From Candidatus Kapaibacterium sp. (lineage in GTDB: Bacteria; Bacteroidota; Ignavibacteria; Kapaibacteriales; UBA4661), in NCBI GenBank assembly GCA_004292595.1, contig RDXM01000088.1, positions 1 to 61,844 on the forward strand: DNA of 61,844 nucleotides. Direction: 5' to 3'. Made by a program: the position numbers and the translations under genes. Numbering within the stretch: position 1 is the stretch's first letter; the number at the start of each line of letters is the position of its first letter. The notes beneath the pieces are model-generated. The model was not told where the DNA came from and did not search any database. It worked only from the letters and a program-made list of their open reading frames with translations. Shown here piece after piece: positions 28,744-36,855 of the stretch.

Positions 28744-29241
28744 TTACAGCTTAATGCTCAAACCAACACGACCACCTGCGCCATTTATCCCACCACCCAA
28801 GCGTAGTGTTATGCCAAATTTATCCGTAAAGAAATATCGTCCGCCAATATGCCCGCTCCAATCAATGGGAATATAATTACTGGTATTGCCGAACCAGTTG
28901 TAGTAATAAATACCGAGACCAAGATACAGGTCAAGATTTTTTGGCGGAAACGTGCCAAAGTCAAAGTGGTAGTTTGCTTCTGGACCAATGCTGAATGCCG
29001 TACCACCCGACCAAAACGCTAGAGATGCCGAGCCACCAACACCAATATAGCCAGGTCCCACTTTATCCGTAATGCCATATTCATATGTTACAAAAGGAGA
29101 GAGAGCATAACCAAGTCCCAAACCAACATCAAGAATGCTCGACCCTTTTTTCATCACTTGTGCATGGCTTGTTTGCACAACAGCACTGCTCAAAAGAACC
29201 CCCAGTGCGACAACAGCGAAAAATGTACGCATACTACGCAT
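28744..29241 (-). CDS. Small outer-membrane beta-barrel-like protein
   Basis: The 165-residue protein has a Sec signal peptide (cleaved after SHAQ, ~28). The mature part is rich in Gly and aromatic residues in alternating strands: ILDVGLGLGYALSPFVTYEYG, LDLYLGLGIYYYNWF, HIGGRYFFTDKFGITLRLGGG. It ends in a short amphipathic strand, VGLSIKL. This is the pattern of an 8-strand outer-membrane barrel (OmpX/OmpW-like size). The ATG at 29241 has GTGAGG 5 bases upstream; an in-frame codon 15 bases earlier is less well placed. Its function is unknown. Confidence 0.75.
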   Translation of the reverse strand: MRSMRTFFAVVALGVLLSSAVVQTSHAQVMKKGSSILDVGLGLGYALSPFVTYEYGITDKVGPGYIGVGGSASLAFWSGGTAFSIGPEANYHFDFGTFPPKNLDLYLGLGIYYYNWFGNTSNYIPIDWSGHIGGRYFFTDKFGITLRLGGGINGAGGRVGLSIKL

Positions 29242-29368
29242 AAAAACCTCACCCAAAAAAATGAGAAATAAAAAGAAACGTGATTTTGAGAGGGGGAACT
29301 TACGAAAGTTTTTCTAACATACAAGCCAATTCCTACGACCCACTACAAAATTTATGCTCTGTGTTGTT

Positions 29369-29469
29369 ATACCGTTTCGATTGTAAAATGAATACTTTCA
29401 ATTCTCCGAAACAAGGCAGCATGCTGCCTTGCTCAAATCAAAGTATTCAAAATACAGTCAAAACGGTAT
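29369..29469. repeat. Palindromic ~101-bp intergenic repeat, copy B (complete)
   Basis: The complete element starts ATACCGTTTCGATTGTAAAA and ends CAAAACGGTAT. The first and last ~30 bp pair imperfectly, and the centre is the 20-bp palindrome CAAGGCAGCATGCTGCCTTG. One mismatch separates it from the copy at 1-94. The 241 bp from here to the next gene hold no gene I can support. Confidence 0.85.
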
Positions 29470-29710: not shown

Positions 29711-32700
29711 ATGGATATTTTTACACATTCTCGCTATTCTAAGATTCAGGTACTCTCGACCACCGAACACGCTCATTTGCTTCGTGCATTCGATGATGAG
29801 CGTCAGGAGCAAGTAATGGTGCGGGTTTTTCGCACCTCGCGCGAGGCAGAGCAATCCTACATTCTTACCGAAATTGCCTCTGTTGCCAAAATTGCTGCTC
29901 CGCAAGTAGCTTCCATACTGGATATGGGGCTAACGCTGCACAACGAGCCATTTATGGTCTTCGAGCAGATTCCTCATATTCCCATCGAAAACGTTCCTTC
30001 CAAGCAGTTTCATTCGCCAGAATTTTTTGCGAGCGTGGCGGTGTCTGCCTTGCAAGCTCTTATACCATTGCACAAAAACTACCGCGCTCTCACCTGCTGT
30101 ACGCCCCAATCCTTGCGCTTGGAAGATATTACCTCCAGCAATGTGCGCATGAGCTTGGAAACATGGGAGCCACCCTACAATGCCGCCGTGATACGGGCTT
30201 TCTACGGCTCACACAACTGCTATGCCGCGCCAGAGCTTAACTTTGACGTAGTGCTGGACGCTCGCGCGGATTTATACTCGCTTGGTGTGGTGCTGTATGA
30301 AGCCCTGACCAGAAAATCCTTTACCGACCTCGCTTTGGTAGATTCGCCCGGCATGGTTGCGCATTTGGTGGTGAAAAATATCCACGCCCACGCACCACAT
30401 CTGCCAGATATTCTTATCCAATGGCTCTGCGGCTTGCTTGAGCGCGAACGCTCGCTGCGCTTTTTCTCGGCAAAAGAAGCATTAGAATATCTTGTGGAAA
30501 ACGGACAAGCCAGTAATGACGCACTCTCGGTGGATGATGACGCTCTCGAATCCACACCAATTCACTTTGCACCCGCCGCCGCAATCGGCTTAGAGCCTGC
30601 CTTTGCGGCAGTGGTGAACGTGCAATCGCCCTATTCCGAATCAGCAGTGCTGGAAATATCGGGCGAGCCAGGCGTGGGCAAGACGTTTTTGCTCTCGACG
30701 CTCTTGCAATCGCGCTTGCAATCTACCTCGCTTTTGCGCCAACGCATTGAATACATTCGCCCCCACGATGCCGCTAATCTTGCCGACCGCATCTGCCATG
30801 CCTTGGAGCATCAAGAACCAACGCTGTTCCTTGTCGATGATGCCGAGCAGATTCCAGAACGCATTCGGCAATCTGCAAAAGAAGCACTGGCACGAGAAGG
30901 AACGCTGCTGATTGGTGTGCGCGTTGTCGCAACGCATCGCTCGCAGCTTCCGCTCTTGGCAATCAAGCCGACAACAATTACGCTCTCGCACCTTGCGCCC
31001 TCGCATTTGCCGCTCTTCTGCGCAGAAATACTAGGGCGGTGCGTGTTCACAGCAGATTTTATCCGATATTTGTATTCCATGAGCAAAGGGCATCCGCTCC
31101 TGCTCGAAACTGCCTTGCGACGTATGGTGCGAAACGGCATCATTACACGGCACAACCGCATTTGGACCGACACAATCACTGCTTTTTCCGAACCCAAAAG
31201 CGATGCCCCGCAAACACTGCTTCAAATCGTTATTGAATCCTTACGCATTCTACCAGAAGAGTTTTTAACGACGCTTGCCGCGCTGGTAGCTCTCGGCAAG
31301 GCTGGTGTGCAAAGCGTTTCGCTTCATACACTTGCAGAGCTGCTAGATTCCTCCACCTACGCAACAATGCGTATCGTCTTGCCCTTGTCGTTTGAGGGAA
31401 TTGTCAAGGTTCGCGCTTCATATGTGGAATTTGCACACGACATTATGCTGGAAGCCGCCATGAATGCCTGTTCCGAAGCCAGCGTCCAAGCTCTCTTGCT
31501 CAAATGGCGGCTTGCAAAAAATAACGACGAACCCGCACCGCAATCACAAAGCGTTCCAGCAGATACAATGCTGCACCACCCAGCGCAACAGGCTTCCGAA
31601 AATGCTCACGCGGAGAATGCTCAACACCCAGCGCAGACCGCACACGAGCCTACAATGACAATACGCCCTTCGTCAGGGAGCAATCACGCAGAAAGAAGCG
31701 CAGAAAAAAGCGCAAAGAGAAGCGTAGAGCATCCGAGCGCGGTATTTTTTGAGGAAACAAGCATTGATGCGCCTTCGGCACTGATTTTACATGGAGCTTC
31801 TCGCTCTGTGCAGATTCTTCGTCGCAATGTAGAAATTGCCGCTTCGCACCAGCATTTATCCTGCTTGATTGAAGGCACCTTTGGGGCGCAAAAAGAAGAA
31901 TTAGCATTTCTCATTCACAGTGCAAGCGAGCGGCGCACCGCACCATTTCACGTAGTTTCGTGTGCAGATTTTCACGATAACGAACTGGAAACGTATCTTT
32001 TTGGACAGGGTGGAAGTCCAGCCAGCGCATCTTCTTTCGGTGTTCCGACACTTGGGCTGGAGGGCTTGCTGCACGCATCGCAAGGCGGAACGGTCTTTAT
32101 TGATGAAATTATTGACGCACCAAAACACCTGCAAACCCGCTTAGGACGGCTTATCCAGACGCTTCAAAAACAACGCACCAGAAACTATACGGGCTACGTG
32201 GCAAAATCGCTCCAATCGCAAGAAGTACTGCCAGATGTGCGGGTGATTGTTGGTTTTACGATTCAGAACGGACAAAAATCAGAAACTGCGCTCAGGCAAA
32301 ATCTCTTGCAGCCAGAATTATTTTTTGCCGTGAGCAGTGTGCGCGTATCGGTGCCGCTTCTGAGCGAACGCACGGAAGATATTCCGCTCTTGGCGCAAGA
32401 ATTTACCAAAGCGATTGCCCGTGAATACGGCATCGCACCTGAGCTTGCACATATTCCGCCCGAACTCTGGCGAAGCCTGATGAGCCGCAAAGAATGGCTC
32501 GGCGATATGAGCGAATTAGAAGCAATGATGCGCCGTCTCGCGCTCATGCTGGATGCCGGACAAGAAAGTATTCAGGATATGTTTCTGGAATTTACTGCGC
32601 AGCCTGCGTCCGCGAACGTGTACGCTTTGCCGCAGACGCAATCCTTTCCGCAGCAATCCTTTCCGCGACAATCTTCGCACCAGAATTTCCCTCGCGCAGT

Positions 32701-32899
32701 AAGCAAACATGCGGGTTTGCAGGAAGAATTACATCAAATCGCATCGGACGGGCTGCTTTCGATTGACGACGCACAAAAAGAGCATATTCTACGCGCCCTT
32801 GAGCGCACAGGCGGCAACAAAACCAAAGCCGCAGAAATGCTCCGCATCAAGCGTACAACCTTGCTTGCACGGATGAAAAAGTTTGGGTTGATGCCGTGA
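29711..32899 (+). CDS. Pseudokinase - AAA ATPase - degenerate sigma54-activator - Fis HTH fusion
   Basis: This is a 1062-residue soluble protein with four parts. (1) Residues 1-265 form a Ser/Thr-kinase-like domain with the APE motif (AAPEL, ~172-176) and DARADLYSLGVVLYEAL, but I see no HRD/DFG motifs or glycine loop, so a pseudokinase. (2) Residues ~290-600 form an AAA_16/STAND-type NTPase with Walker A GEPGVGKT (318-325) and Walker B LFLVDDAE (~372-379). (3) After a low-complexity linker (605-690), residues ~700-950 resemble a sigma54-interaction domain, with GGTVFIDEII, but the P-loop is degraded (EGTFGAQKEE) and the GAFTGA loop is replaced by GGSPASASS. (4) A C-terminal Fis-type HTH (RTGGNKTKAAEMLRIKRTTL). 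It is probably a DNA-binding regulator that does not activate sigma54 RNA polymerase. Confidence 0.85.
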   Translation: MDIFTHSRYSKIQVLSTTEHAHLLRAFDDERQEQVMVRVFRTSREAEQSYILTEIASVAKIAAPQVASILDMGLTLHNEPFMVFEQIPHIPIENVPSKQFHSPEFFASVAVSALQALIPLHKNYRALTCCTPQSLRLEDITSSNVRMSLETWEPPYNAAVIRAFYGSHNCYAAPELNFDVVLDARADLYSLGVVLYEALTRKSFTDLALVDSPGMVAHLVVKNIHAHAPHLPDILIQWLCGLLERERSLRFFSAKEALEYLVENGQASNDALSVDDDALESTPIHFAPAAAIGLEPAFAAVVNVQSPYSESAVLEISGEPGVGKTFLLSTLLQSRLQSTSLLRQRIEYIRPHDAANLADRICHALEHQEPTLFLVDDAEQIPERIRQSAKEALAREGTLLIGVRVVATHRSQLPLLAIKPTTITLSHLAPSHLPLFCAEILGRCVFTADFIRYLYSMSKGHPLLLETALRRMVRNGIITRHNRIWTDTITAFSEPKSDAPQTLLQIVIESLRILPEEFLTTLAALVALGKAGVQSVSLHTLAELLDSSTYATMRIVLPLSFEGIVKVRASYVEFAHDIMLEAAMNACSEASVQALLLKWRLAKNNDEPAPQSQSVPADTMLHHPAQQASENAHAENAQHPAQTAHEPTMTIRPSSGSNHAERSAEKSAKRSVEHPSAVFFEETSIDAPSALILHGASRSVQILRRNVEIAASHQHLSCLIEGTFGAQKEELAFLIHSASERRTAPFHVVSCADFHDNELETYLFGQGGSPASASSFGVPTLGLEGLLHASQGGTVFIDEIIDAPKHLQTRLGRLIQTLQKQRTRNYTGYVAKSLQSQEVLPDVRVIVGFTIQNGQKSETALRQNLLQPELFFAVSSVRVSVPLLSERTEDIPLLAQEFTKAIAREYGIAPELAHIPPELWRSLMSRKEWLGDMSELEAMMRRLALMLDAGQESIQDMFLEFTAQPASANVYALPQTQSFPQQSFPRQSSHQNFPRAVSKHAGLQEELHQIASDGLLSIDDAQKEHILRALERTGGNKTKAAEMLRIKRTTLLARMKKFGLMP

Positions 32900-33007: not shown

Positions 33008-36000
33008 TTAATCTCTATCCGTCAGAATCTCCACAATCCGAGCATTCGAGAGACCATCAGCCTTGAGCTTTTGAATGGTGGAAAGACGCACACCGCGCAC
33101 ACCAAGCTCGGCAATGTCGCCAGTGGAAAGTCCGAGTGCTTTCATTTCCTTTGCAAGCTCAGGTTTAATGCCGCGTACAGCCAATTCTGCAATGTCATCG
33201 GTGCGGAAGCCAGCTTTTGCATATTCCTTCGCCGTCTCAGGTCTAATGCCGCGTACAGCCAATTCCTCAATGTCATCCCTGCGGAAACCTGCTTCTTGGT
33301 ATTCTTTCGCCGTGCTAGGTTTTATACCGCGTACAGCCAATTCTAGTATGTCATCTACGCGGAAGCCGAGTGCTTTGTATTCTTTCGCCGTTTCCGCTTT
33401 TATGCCGCGCACACCGAGTTCTTCAATGTCGTCGCTTGAGAAGCCCAGTGCTTTCATTTGCTTCACATATTCAGGTTTGATGCCGCGTCTGCCGAAATCA
33501 GACGTTTCCTCGCGCGAAAAACCTGCATCGCGGAAGGAGCTGATATGCTCAAGGTTCAAGCCGCGTACACCAAACTCACGAATCTCATCGGCAGAAAAAC
33601 CTTTTACCCGCATTTTCTTTACAAAGTCAGGTTTGATGCCGAGTATAGCAAATTCTTTGATGTCGTCTGTGCGCAAGCCAGCGTCCTTAAAAGCACGTAC
33701 CGTCTCAGGTTTGATACCAAGTACACCGATTTCTTTGATGTCGCTCACCTTGTAGCCAAGCGATTTCATTTGCTTGATGTACTCAACGCGAATGCCCAAC
33801 ACGCCGTATTCCTTGATGTCGTCCACGGGAACGCCCGCGTCTTTGTATTCCTTCACCATCTGAGGTTTGATGCCGAGTACGCCAAGTTCTTTAATCTCGT
33901 CAATTTTGTAGCCGAGCGATTTCATTTCCTTGATGTACTCAACGCGGATGCCCAACACGCCGTATTCTTTGATGTCGTCCACTGGTACGCCAGCGTCTTT
34001 GTATTCTTTTACCATCTCAGGTTTAATGCCAAGTACGCCGATTTCTTTGATGTCCTCGACTTTGTAGCCGAGCGATTTCATGTTGTTCACGTATTCAGGT
34101 CGGATGCCAAGTACGCCGTATTCTTTGATTTCATCAATGGGAACGCCAGCATCTTTCAATTCTTTCACTTTGTCGGGACGAATGCCGAGTGCGCCATATT
34201 CCTTGATTTCTTCGGTTTTTACGCCGAATTTTTTCATCTCTTCAACGTAGTCTGCTTTGATGCCGAGTACGCCCAATTCCTTGATGTCATCAAGGCTGTA
34301 GCCATATTGCTTCATTTCCTTGATGTACTCATTGTTAATGCCCAACACGCCATATTCCTTGATTTCCTCGCCGTTCAAGCCATTTTGACGCGCTTCTTTC
34401 ACAAACTCAGGTTTGATGCCGAGTACAGCAATTTCAACTGCTTCTTCGGTGCTGAGTTTCAAGCCCGACAACTCGCGCAGCAATGCCATATTCACGTCCG
34501 TAACGGCGAGCGTAACAAGATCTTTTTCTTGCACATCGCTGAAACCCAAGCCTTTCATCTGCTCGACAAATTTGGTGTTTGCTTGGAACTCATATGTGCC
34601 GCCACCCGCACCACTATTGGTCTCGCCCGTAAAAACAAACGTGCCAGATTCTTTCACTAAACGAAACTGCACATCACCCGAAGCAGTGCGTATTTGTGCG
34701 GTGTTCAAGCCTTGCACTTCGTTGTACTGCAAACCTGTGTACATGGTGCCGTTGTAGCGATTTTTGCCACGCTTATTTTTGAAAAGAATGAGCGTGATTG
34801 ATTTTTCCTTGAACTTCGCTTCCCAAAAGCCTTCAATGCCGATGTTTCCTTCGTCCCAGTAATTGTTCCAGCTCGCCGAGCGAGAATTTGTGCGATTTGA
34901 GTCCGACATCGCAAATGGTGTAAGGGGCGAGAGCGGCGAAACAGGCGCAAGCGGCGCGAGTGGCGGTAAGAGCTTGGAAGCCAGTCCCGATGCGGTTTTG
35001 CGAGCATTCTCCATAATCGGCTCCATGACGGGCTTTACCATTGGTTGCAGTGCGGGGCTGGCTGTCAGCGAGAGGGCGAAAATGCAGGTAATGACGAGGT
35101 ATGCAGCCAGATATTCGATTGAAAAAGAGCGTTCTGGCTGCTTGCCCAAAAGACGCTTCACGCGCCCCAGCAAATGCCCGTCGGTGGCAGCAACGGAGGC
35201 GGTGCCGAAGGCGGATTCGTGTCCAGCGAAATTGCGTTCTTCCAAAATTGCCAATGCTGAAGCGAGTGCGCGGGAATCGCCGCAGACCTGCGCTGCCAAG
35301 TCATCGGAGGCGTGTTCGCGCTCTTCGCGCATGACGGACGACATCCACCAGACGGCAGGATGATAAAACAGCAAGGTTTCGATAGCTGCTTGCACAAGGC
35401 TGAGAAGGTAGTCTTTGCGCCATACATGGGCGAGTTCGTGTGCCAAAATTGCTTCGATGTGCTGCGATTGCAGCCCCGTCAGAAAGCCCATCGGAACAAG
35501 AATGACGGGCTTCAAGAAGCCAACAACCATCGGCACATTTGCCAAGCCTGATTCCAGAAGCTGCGGAACGTGCCGCGAGCCGAGTTTATGCGCCAGTTCG
35601 TACACGCGGTCTTGCCACTCGCGGCTTGCGGGAAAGGCGCGGTAGGTCTTCATGCGCTGCGCATAGGCAATGCCGCCCATAAGGCGCATCGCAAAGGCAA
35701 TCATGCCCACAAACCAGAGCAGCACAAGCGTTGGGAGATATTGCTGAATGCGTTCCATAAGCGCGAGTTGTGGCGTGAGTTTCACGGGCGAAAGTTGGAG
35801 CAATTCAAACGCGCGACGCTTCGAGGCGGATATGAGCAGATTTTCATTCAAGGCGTTATTTCGTGCGCTTTGGAGGGCGTGAAGTTTTGTTTGTGCGGCT
35901 TGTTCCAAATCTTCTTTGCTGACGGTTTTGGTGGAGGAAATATTGGCAATTTTTCCCGCATCAATATCGTTCACAAGGTCAGATTTCATCGCGCTTGCAA

Positions 36001-36307
36001 AGCTGTTTTCTGCTTGCAGAGCGTCTGCGTTGCCAGTTGTTTCCAAACGCTCTTCTGCCGTGAAGAGCGCATTACTGCTGATGTTTGGCTCATAGAGAAG
36101 CGCGAAAGTAAGAGCAACAAGCACAAAGGTAGCAATGATGCCGCTTGCAGCAACGGTGTAGCGCGTTTGTGCGCTGGCGCGGCGCAGAACGATGAGAAAC
36201 ACGCCGACAATAAATGCCACAAATGTTGCTTGCCACAAGGAATGAAGCAGTGTCCAGCCGAGTGCTTCGGAGAGTTCTACGGGAAGGAATGTTGTGAAGG
36301 AGTTCAT
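33008..36307 (-). CDS. M56 (BlaR1-like) membrane metalloprotease with 18 C-terminal 26-residue repeats
   Basis: The 1099-residue protein starts with BlaR1/MecR1-type membrane helices (LHSLWQATFVAFIVGVFLIV; others near 55 and 195) and the zinc protease site LAHELAHVWRKDY (H290, E291, H294). The EREHASDDLA block is also typical of M56. Another helix lies near residue 400. Beyond it, a beta-rich domain (~470-620) is followed by 18 tandem copies of a 26-residue unit of the form GVLGIKPEMVKEYKDAG-x9 (residues ~627-1095). There is no penicillin-binding sensor domain. It is co-transcribed with blaI (32-bp gap; Shine-Dalgarno AAGGAA before the ATG), so it should sense an envelope signal and trigger BlaI cleavage. 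What the repeats bind is unknown. Confidence 0.93.
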   Translation of the reverse strand: MNSFTTFLPVELSEALGWTLLHSLWQATFVAFIVGVFLIVLRRASAQTRYTVAASGIIATFVLVALTFALLYEPNISSNALFTAEERLETTGNADALQAENSFASAMKSDLVNDIDAGKIANISSTKTVSKEDLEQAAQTKLHALQSARNNALNENLLISASKRRAFELLQLSPVKLTPQLALMERIQQYLPTLVLLWFVGMIAFAMRLMGGIAYAQRMKTYRAFPASREWQDRVYELAHKLGSRHVPQLLESGLANVPMVVGFLKPVILVPMGFLTGLQSQHIEAILAHELAHVWRKDYLLSLVQAAIETLLFYHPAVWWMSSVMREEREHASDDLAAQVCGDSRALASALAILEERNFAGHESAFGTASVAATDGHLLGRVKRLLGKQPERSFSIEYLAAYLVITCIFALSLTASPALQPMVKPVMEPIMENARKTASGLASKLLPPLAPLAPVSPLSPLTPFAMSDSNRTNSRSASWNNYWDEGNIGIEGFWEAKFKEKSITLILFKNKRGKNRYNGTMYTGLQYNEVQGLNTAQIRTASGDVQFRLVKESGTFVFTGETNSGAGGGTYEFQANTKFVEQMKGLGFSDVQEKDLVTLAVTDVNMALLRELSGLKLSTEEAVEIAVLGIKPEFVKEARQNGLNGEEIKEYGVLGINNEYIKEMKQYGYSLDDIKELGVLGIKADYVEEMKKFGVKTEEIKEYGALGIRPDKVKELKDAGVPIDEIKEYGVLGIRPEYVNNMKSLGYKVEDIKEIGVLGIKPEMVKEYKDAGVPVDDIKEYGVLGIRVEYIKEMKSLGYKIDEIKELGVLGIKPQMVKEYKDAGVPVDDIKEYGVLGIRVEYIKQMKSLGYKVSDIKEIGVLGIKPETVRAFKDAGLRTDDIKEFAILGIKPDFVKKMRVKGFSADEIREFGVRGLNLEHISSFRDAGFSREETSDFGRRGIKPEYVKQMKALGFSSDDIEELGVRGIKAETAKEYKALGFRVDDILELAVRGIKPSTAKEYQEAGFRRDDIEELAVRGIRPETAKEYAKAGFRTDDIAELAVRGIKPELAKEMKALGLSTGDIAELGVRGVRLSTIQKLKADGLSNARIVEILTDRD
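33023..34429 (-). repeat. Coding tandem repeat, 78-bp unit, ~18 copies
   Basis: Each unit encodes one 26-residue repeat of the M56 protein. Near 33770-34060 adjacent units group into a 156-bp higher-order repeat that is almost identical at DNA level, alternating KEYKDAGVPVDDIKEY and KEMKSLGYKxxxIKE. Recent duplication and copy-number variation are therefore likely here. Confidence 0.9.
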
Positions 36308-36339: not shown

Positions 36340-36783
36340 TTATTTGCTTGATTTCTTGCGGGTGCTGGGCGTATGTGCGGCTGTTTCTTCTGCGGTTCGA
36401 TTGGCATTATTTTCCAGTTCTTCGTCTAGCAGAGCGCGTATTTGCTGGAGTTCGGAGGTAGAAGTTTTACCAGAGCCGAGTGCTTGCAAGACCAATTTCA
36501 TTGCCGAACCGCGAAAGACGGAATCCATGAGTTTGCTCACGAAGGCTTGCTGTACCTCGTCTTCACGCACCTCTGCCGTATAGATGTGCGTTCTGTTCGA
36601 TTCATCCCGCGAGAGCAAGCCCTTTTCTGCCATGATTTGCATAATTTTCAAGGTGGTTGTGTAGCCAATCGTGTCGTCGTTGTCCTTATTCAGAGCGTCG
36701 TTGATGGTGCGGACGGTTGCTGCGCCGTTTTGCCAGAGAACTTGTAAAATCTCAAGTTCTGCGTCGGTGGGTTTGTATTTCAT
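36340..36783 (-). CDS. blaI: BlaI/MecI-family transcriptional repressor
   Basis: The 147-residue winged-helix repressor starts MKYKPTDAELEILQVLWQ, the classic BlaI N-terminus. It continues with TTLKIMQIMAEKGLLSRDE (recognition helix and wing) and a dimerising C-terminal helical part (EVREDEVQQAFVSKLMDSVF). GGAG 6 bases before the ATG at 36783 decides the start over two upstream ATGs. The C-terminal ~35 residues are a polar tail beyond the usual ~125-residue length. It is first in an operon with the M56 protease and is preceded by two palindromic operators. In this family, protease-triggered cleavage relieves repression. Confidence 0.95.
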   Translation of the reverse strand: MKYKPTDAELEILQVLWQNGAATVRTINDALNKDNDDTIGYTTTLKIMQIMAEKGLLSRDESNRTHIYTAEVREDEVQQAFVSKLMDSVFRGSAMKLVLQALGSGKTSTSELQQIRALLDEELENNANRTAEETAAHTPSTRKKSSK

Positions 36784-36815
36784 TGTTTTCTCCATTGAAA
36801 TTGTTTGACGGGTTG

Positions 36816-36855
36816 TTATACGAAGCATTTCGTATAATTTACGAAAGAGTTCGTA
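36816..36855 (-). promoter_or_regulatory. Tandem BlaI operator palindromes
   Basis: Two perfect dyads, TTATACGAA-gcat-TTCGTATAA (36816-36837) and TACGAA-agag-TTCGTA (36840-36855), share the core TACGAA-N4-TTCGTA. Their centres are 21 bp apart, two DNA turns. They lie 33-72 bp upstream of the blaI start. Their position and symmetry fit autorepression by a BlaI dimer on each site; the sequence differs from the staphylococcal TACA/TGTA box. Confidence 0.8.

Follow-up and report, generated by a model that had tools for sequence, protein, structure and literature searches.

A candidate DNA-binding regulator of the Kapaibacteriales combining a pseudokinase, a STAND-like NTPase and a degenerate sigma54-activator domain

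What could be the role of a protein assembled like a kinase-coupled sigma54 activator that has kept neither the catalytic residues of the kinase nor the sigma54-contact loop of the activator? The question is raised by a gene of Candidatus Kapaibacterium sp. (order Kapaibacteriales) in contig RDXM01000088.1 of assembly GCA_004292595.1, whose 61,844 nucleotides constitute the window analyzed here. The gene encodes a protein of 1062 amino acids, in which a first-pass annotation had read a Ser/Thr kinase-like N-terminus, a canonical AAA module, an NtrC-like second ATPase and a C-terminal Fis helix-turn-helix (HTH). Sequence comparison makes it almost certain that the layout is that of a pseudokinase, an intact STAND-like nucleoside triphosphatase (NTPase), a degenerate sigma54-activator AAA+ domain and a Fis-type HTH (Table 1). 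Pfam matched Pkinase (residues 22-206, 27.4 bits, under the cut-off of 31.7), AAA_22 (313-394, 28.8 bits, cut-off 27), Sigma54_activat (695-822, 71.1 bits, cut-off 20.2), AAA_lid_14 (886-968) and HTH_8 (1018-1058, 48.8 bits, cut-off 22), the last confirming the proposed Fis HTH. The closest solved sequences were sigma54 activators for the C-terminal half, ZraR first, and PknB for the N-terminal part.

The conservation of each part was determined in an alignment of the 12 unbroken family members, to which all counts of members refer; the orthologue of genome G002 (L043, L044), split by a contig end, was kept outside it. Since Pkinase was matched in all 12 members at E <= 0.001 (best 2e-13) and the family profile retrieved solved kinases at 2.3e-25, the kinase fold match, as judged from the profiles, is not due to chance. 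Pfam and the alignment agreed with the annotation that APE and a DLYSLG-type helix are present and that HRD, DFG and the glycine loop are not. In the window protein the glycine-loop glycines are absent, Arg replaces the VAIK Lys, Cys replaces the HxD Asp and DFG is unrecognizable, so that it has none of the features of an active Ser/Thr kinase (glycine loop, VAIK Lys, HxD Asp, DFG Asp); APE and DxxxxG are retained. The PE of APE, the alpha-F Asp and Gly, and Arg250 were found in 12/12 members, the glycine-loop glycines in none; a kinase-profile match together with these C-lobe scaffold residues, indicative of a pseudokinase fold, is seen across the family. This strong conservation of the C-lobe, and the VAIK Lys present in a single member (L050), might suggest an active kinase of unorthodox type, or else a sensor of nucleotides. 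We consider this very improbable, as the HxD Asp and the metal-binding Asn are missing from all 12 members and the DFG Asp aligns in only one.

The first AAA module was, as annotated, canonical, with a Walker A GEPGVGKT and a Walker B. STAND NTPases are characterized by a P-loop, an hhhhD(D/E) motif and a GxP motif. All three were found in the window protein, the GHP triplet being what we take to be the STAND GxP motif, though nSTAND_NTPase5 scores 21.5 bits there, short of its cut-off of 34. GExGxGK(T/S), Asp376 and GxP were conserved in 12/12 members and Asp377 in 11/12, and nSTAND_NTPase5 was matched in eight members at E <= 0.001. By its motifs, this module has the hallmarks of the STAND switch known from PknK and MalT. 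STAND proteins, these two among them, are described in passages of PMC4381067 as being closed with ADP and opening into an oligomer with ATP.

The second ATPase had been described as NtrC-like, with a broken P-loop and no GAFTGA loop. GAFTGA is indeed absent, and the P-loop reads GTFGAQKE where intact relatives have GESGTGKE, the second Gly being replaced by Gln; the Lys, however, is kept, and so is the Walker B IDEI. The P-loop is thus damaged rather than erased, and weak nucleotide binding may occur there. The arginine fingers are replaced by Gln and Ala and the sensor II Arg by Ser. Measured against bacterial enhancer-binding proteins, the window protein therefore lacks the contact loop, an intact Walker A, the arginine fingers and the sensor II Arg and has the C-terminal Fis-type HTH, whose stretch IKRTTL(L/I)ARMKK is present in 12/12 members. 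The genome encodes sigma54 and six other activator homologues scoring above 200 bits, with five weaker Sigma54_activat matches at 21-33 bits. The loops of the six read GAFTGA, GAFSGA and GAFTDA (two each), and their P-loops and arginine fingers are kept. Because sigma54 is present and these activators have preserved their sites, the degeneration is specific to the window protein. The presence of sigma54, together with the Walker B D(E/D) in 10/12 members and the P-loop Lys in 5/12, window included, would be compatible with a protein still acting with sigma54 through an altered loop, or with a second AAA+ domain still hydrolyzing ATP. GAFTGA and arginine finger 1 are missing from all members, and 11 lack finger 2 and 11 the sensor II Arg, which makes either very improbable. 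The strict sigma54 promoter pattern had no match in the window against 0.2 expected, and the sigma70 promoter scan gave five against 3.0 expected; both are uninformative.

The profile matches and the alignment revealed neither an intact kinase site nor a GAFTGA-competent AAA+ domain. Because the kinase is dead, GAFTGA is lacking and the first NTPase and the Fis HTH are intact, the annotation's proposal of a sigma54-independent regulator, activator or repressor, gated by the intact NTPase is the best reading of the protein.

The distribution of the regulator was analyzed with an N-terminal profile. Among 123 genomes of the order, 13 were matched at 1e-50 or better, each of them once: 10/10 listed genomes of the window's family, 2/3 of a second family and 1/1 of a third. 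Among 395 sampled genomes of the phylum, only four matched at 1e-45, that of the window and three from its genus. As family proteins were the source of the profile and few candidates were scored per genome, more distant relatives may escape detection. In the own genome the window protein was the one match at 1e-15 or better, with four of five candidates scored, and no intact kinase fusion was found in that search. Ratios of nonsynonymous to synonymous substitution (Ka/Ks) were calculated by the Nei-Gojobori method for four pairs, L043 being entered as partial in one. They were 0.098, 0.010, 0.042 and 0.084 for the pseudokinase, 0.068, 0.115, 0.099 and 0.182 for the first NTPase, 0.139, 0.113, 0.071 and 0.194 for the degenerate AAA+ domain and 0, 0.057 and 0.046 for the HTH (three pairs). 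The linkers, used as internal control, gave 0.53, 0.66, 1.32 and 0.78 where Ks was finite, Ks being saturated in three further cases. For the folded parts Ks is above 1 in several cases, where the ratios are accordingly rough; the cleanest pair is L043-L046, with Ks of 0.13-0.19. By these ratios, both dead domains are under purifying selection (0.01-0.19) and the linkers far less so (0.53-1.32). A decaying relic with no function beyond the HTH could be suspected from two dead enzyme modules out of three and from the TPR and GAF domains missing in comparison with the relatives described below. Purifying selection acts on all folded parts and much less on the linkers, and none of the 13 genomes has an internal stop (one gene is cut by a contig end); this argues against a relic, which we regard as highly unlikely.

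The first-pass annotation knew of no described protein with this domain order. The order is not unique: it occurs intact in another group of the same class and in degenerate form in the 13 genomes of the order. A class-wide search gave long frames in other families, of which nine were read (L082-L090), mostly of 1701-1744 codons; they were taken from stop to stop and the lengths are upper limits. These STK-AAA_16-TPR-GAF-Sigma54-HTH_8 fusions resemble the window protein in the order of kinase, NTPase, sigma54 domain and HTH and differ in having intact sites: HGDLKPxN and DFG in the 8/8 readable kinases, GESGTGKE, GAFTGA, FRQDLFYRL and the arginine fingers in 9/9, and the first-NTPase Lys in 8/9. 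L084 starts at a contig end and has no kinase, which also left it outside the N-terminal tree by the length filter. Pfam detected Pkinase, AAA_16, TPR, GAF, Sigma54_activat, the lid and HTH_8 in the two that were scanned (L082, L083). Three degenerate members from two related families (L050, L051, L052) have 1251-1318 amino acids and a TPR-sized insert, with TPR_12 in L050 and L052, a weak TPR-like SNAP match in L051 and no Pfam match to GAF in any of the three. L050 is the least degenerate member, retaining GTGKE and the sensor II Arg besides the VAIK Lys. Members of the window's family are shorter by such an insert (1015-1106 amino acids), and the linker at residues 621-690 occupies the position of the TPR (L050, L052) or TPR and GAF (L082, L083) of the longer relatives. 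Having neither the TPR and GAF nor the intact sites of the fusion family, the window protein is best read as a stripped-down derivative of an intact kinase-AAA-TPR-GAF-sigma54-HTH fusion.

In trees of both halves the degenerate group formed one side of a branch (99; 100/100). The C-terminal tree, built from the best 80 rows (62 different), placed degenerate and intact proteins together on one side with a Shimodaira-Hasegawa-like approximate likelihood ratio test (SH-aLRT) value of 91, or 95 without duplicates. Counted with the intact group in these clade tests were L133-L135 (N-terminal) and L056, L057, L062, L066 and L091 (C-terminal). The alternative is that the degenerate family arose by an independent fusion of its own kinase-STAND protein with an activator module, without descent from the intact fusion. 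It would agree with the N-terminal tree, where the grouping of degenerate and intact proteins reached only 71/42, and with the long branches of the degenerate lineage. It would also agree with the HTH of an ordinary activator (L075), 26 of whose 44 residues are identical to the window protein against 22-25 in the intact group; the median was 14 over 93 distinct stretches, among them the family's own and some lacking an HTH. Because L075 reaches this value, HTH similarity alone proves nothing about descent. Against an independent origin stand the C-terminal grouping, the TPR that some members of both groups carry between the NTPase and the sigma54 domain, and a single family profile that matches the intact protein L083 at E 7.3e-109. 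We therefore hold an independent fusion to be unlikely. Common descent of the two groups, favoured by the C-terminal tree, is the better reading and is not proven.

MalT has a LuxR-type HTH. With MalT and PknK, respectively a STAND transcription factor and a STAND Ser/Thr kinase according to the same passages of PMC4381067, the window protein shares an NTPase with a P-loop, a DD Walker B and GxP, whereas its kinase is dead and its C-terminus is a degenerate sigma54 module with a Fis-type HTH. Homologues of sigma54 activators devoid of the contact loop have also been described: sections of PMC10274813 report that NtrC of Caulobacter and Rhodobacter lacks GAFTGA and acts at sigma70 promoters, and sections of PMC3162934 that TyrR, DhaR and HupR do not serve sigma54, VpsR probably does not, and TyrR and DhaR have sigma70 promoters. 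The window protein resembles these in having a sigma54 domain without the contact loop; it differs in a control part made of a pseudokinase and a STAND NTPase, and may differ in the loss of the arginine fingers and sensor II Arg. Its loss of catalytic motifs is shared with the bacterial Ser/Thr pseudokinase families ActPs1-3, GLW, CP1, DYD and DLHK. In a 2025 review of bacterial pseudokinases (PMC12599244), a term search found nothing that starts with AAA, sigma, helix-turn-helix, DNA-binding, Bacteroidetes or Ignavi. The intact order, dead kinases and dead activator domains, each singly, and STAND regulators are already known; kinase loss and activator loss combined in one conserved protein were not found in the open-access literature among the matches listed, nor by the term search of the review.

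A mechanism can be proposed from these comparisons. The STAND NTPase would be the switch, closed with ADP and open and oligomeric with ATP; the C-lobe of the pseudokinase would serve for docking or for sensing a ligand, and the dead AAA+ domain would be a fixed scaffold holding HTH dimers. The oligomer would bind DNA and act at ordinary, non-sigma54 promoters, like the GAFTGA-less homologues. We think it more likely than not that the whole chain holds, namely a lineage-specific double-pseudoenzyme regulator that derives from an intact fusion and works by STAND-gated, sigma54-independent DNA binding. More tentatively, it may represent a distinct class of regulators, a kinase-coupled sigma54 motor stripped of both catalytic activities in which the STAND switch is the sole working NTPase, the dead kinase is reused as a sensor or docking part and the dead AAA+ domain serves as a scaffold for cooperative DNA binding at ordinary promoters; this is possible, and we would not put it higher.

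Several observations weigh against the proposed chain. Besides the low N-terminal support, the C-terminal support comes from SH-aLRT only, with long-branch warnings. The second AAA+ domain of the window protein still has its Walker B and P-loop Lys. The intact relative L082 lacks the Lys of the first NTPase and therefore the switch is not indispensable in the wider group. There is no conserved gene neighbourhood in the window's family; neighbours are shared by close pairs only. When the 300 bp preceding each of eight orthologues were searched for dyads (half sites of 4-6 nt, gaps of 0-16), no shared one rose above shuffles, and the upstream dyad and gene-neighbourhood comparisons yielded no target, operator or ligand.

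Intact frames of about 1700 amino acids, TPR-bearing double pseudoenzymes of 1251-1318 and minimal ones of 1015-1106 form a graded natural series. It allows one to ask why selection keeps the folds of a dead kinase and a dead AAA+ domain, and by what route an activator of the sigma54 type becomes independent of sigma54 in a cell that retains sigma54 and other activators.

Table 1. Position of the gene and of the predicted parts of its product in the window
Feature	Residues	Coordinates	Strand	Basis
Whole gene	1-1062	29711..32899	+	Open reading frame list and translation
Pseudokinase	1-265	29711..30505	+	Has APE, alpha-F DxxxxG and Arg250; lacks glycine loop, VAIK Lys, HxD Asp and DFG
First NTPase, STAND-like, and winged-helix region after it (approximate limits)	285-620	30563..31570	+	AAA_22 over cut-off; invariant columns
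Walker A GEPGVGKT, intact	318-325	30662..30685	+	GExGxGK(T/S) in 12/12 members
Walker B LVDD	374-377	30830..30841	+	Asp376 in 12/12, Asp377 in 11/12 members
GHP triplet, read as STAND GxP motif	460-462	31088..31096	+	G460 and P462 in 12/12 members
Unconserved linker	621-690	31571..31780	+	5-34% identity to six other same-genus rows
Degenerate sigma54-activator AAA+ and lid	691-970	31781..32620	+	Pfam; GAFTGA and arginine finger 1 in 0/12 members vs 9/9 intact relatives
Damaged P-loop GTFGAQKE	722-729	31874..31897	+	Alignment with intact relatives
Fis/NtrC-type HTH	1013-1062	32747..32896	+	HTH_8 48.8 bits; 82-100% identity to six other same-genus rows

The gene upstream of the regulator is divergent and the gene downstream convergent; because the one faces away from it and the other toward it, the regulator gene is probably transcribed alone. 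The divergent neighbour (28744-29256, minus strand) encodes a small protein resembling an outer-membrane beta-barrel (OMP_b-brl, 20.5 bits, under cut-off), and a related gene occupies the corresponding position in L041, none having been found in the other members compared. Downstream of L050, L051 and L052 (3/3), a gene in the same direction encodes an apolipoprotein N-acyltransferase (LNT_N and CN_hydrolase for L050 and L051, a BLAST homologue for L052), which was not seen beside the regulator in the neighbourhood comparison of the window's family.

Between the divergent neighbour and the regulator lies a palindromic repeat resembling a miniature inverted-repeat transposable element (29369-29469), present also at 21-96, with 35-nt arms that are 80% complementary and flank a perfect CAAGGCAGCA/TGCTGCCTTG core. 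As an operator it was rejected, being a genome-wide repeat: its exact 18-base core is absent from 6/10 genomes of the window's family, and the 101-base element is unmatched in four of the nine other family genomes (G003, G004, G007, G008), all of which have the regulator. The repeat is also absent at the orthologous place in L041. The core has 108 exact copies in its own genome, where the reversed control has none; it occurs in three of 13 other genomes searched, with 30, 20 and 4 copies, and not in the other ten. Many of the matches in G001 and G005 consist of no more than the short core, and the copies in G002 are full-length and diverged. Of the places listed, twelve are no more than about 100 bases away from the start of a contig.

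The convergent gene (33008-36307, minus strand) encodes 1099 amino acids reading as a BlaR1-type M56 peptidase and, after it, a long series of repeats built around EYGVLGIRPEYVKEMK, matched by Pfam Decapeptide at 66.9 bits. The small gene beyond it (36340-36828, minus strand) reads, by eye, like a BlaI/MecI regulator.

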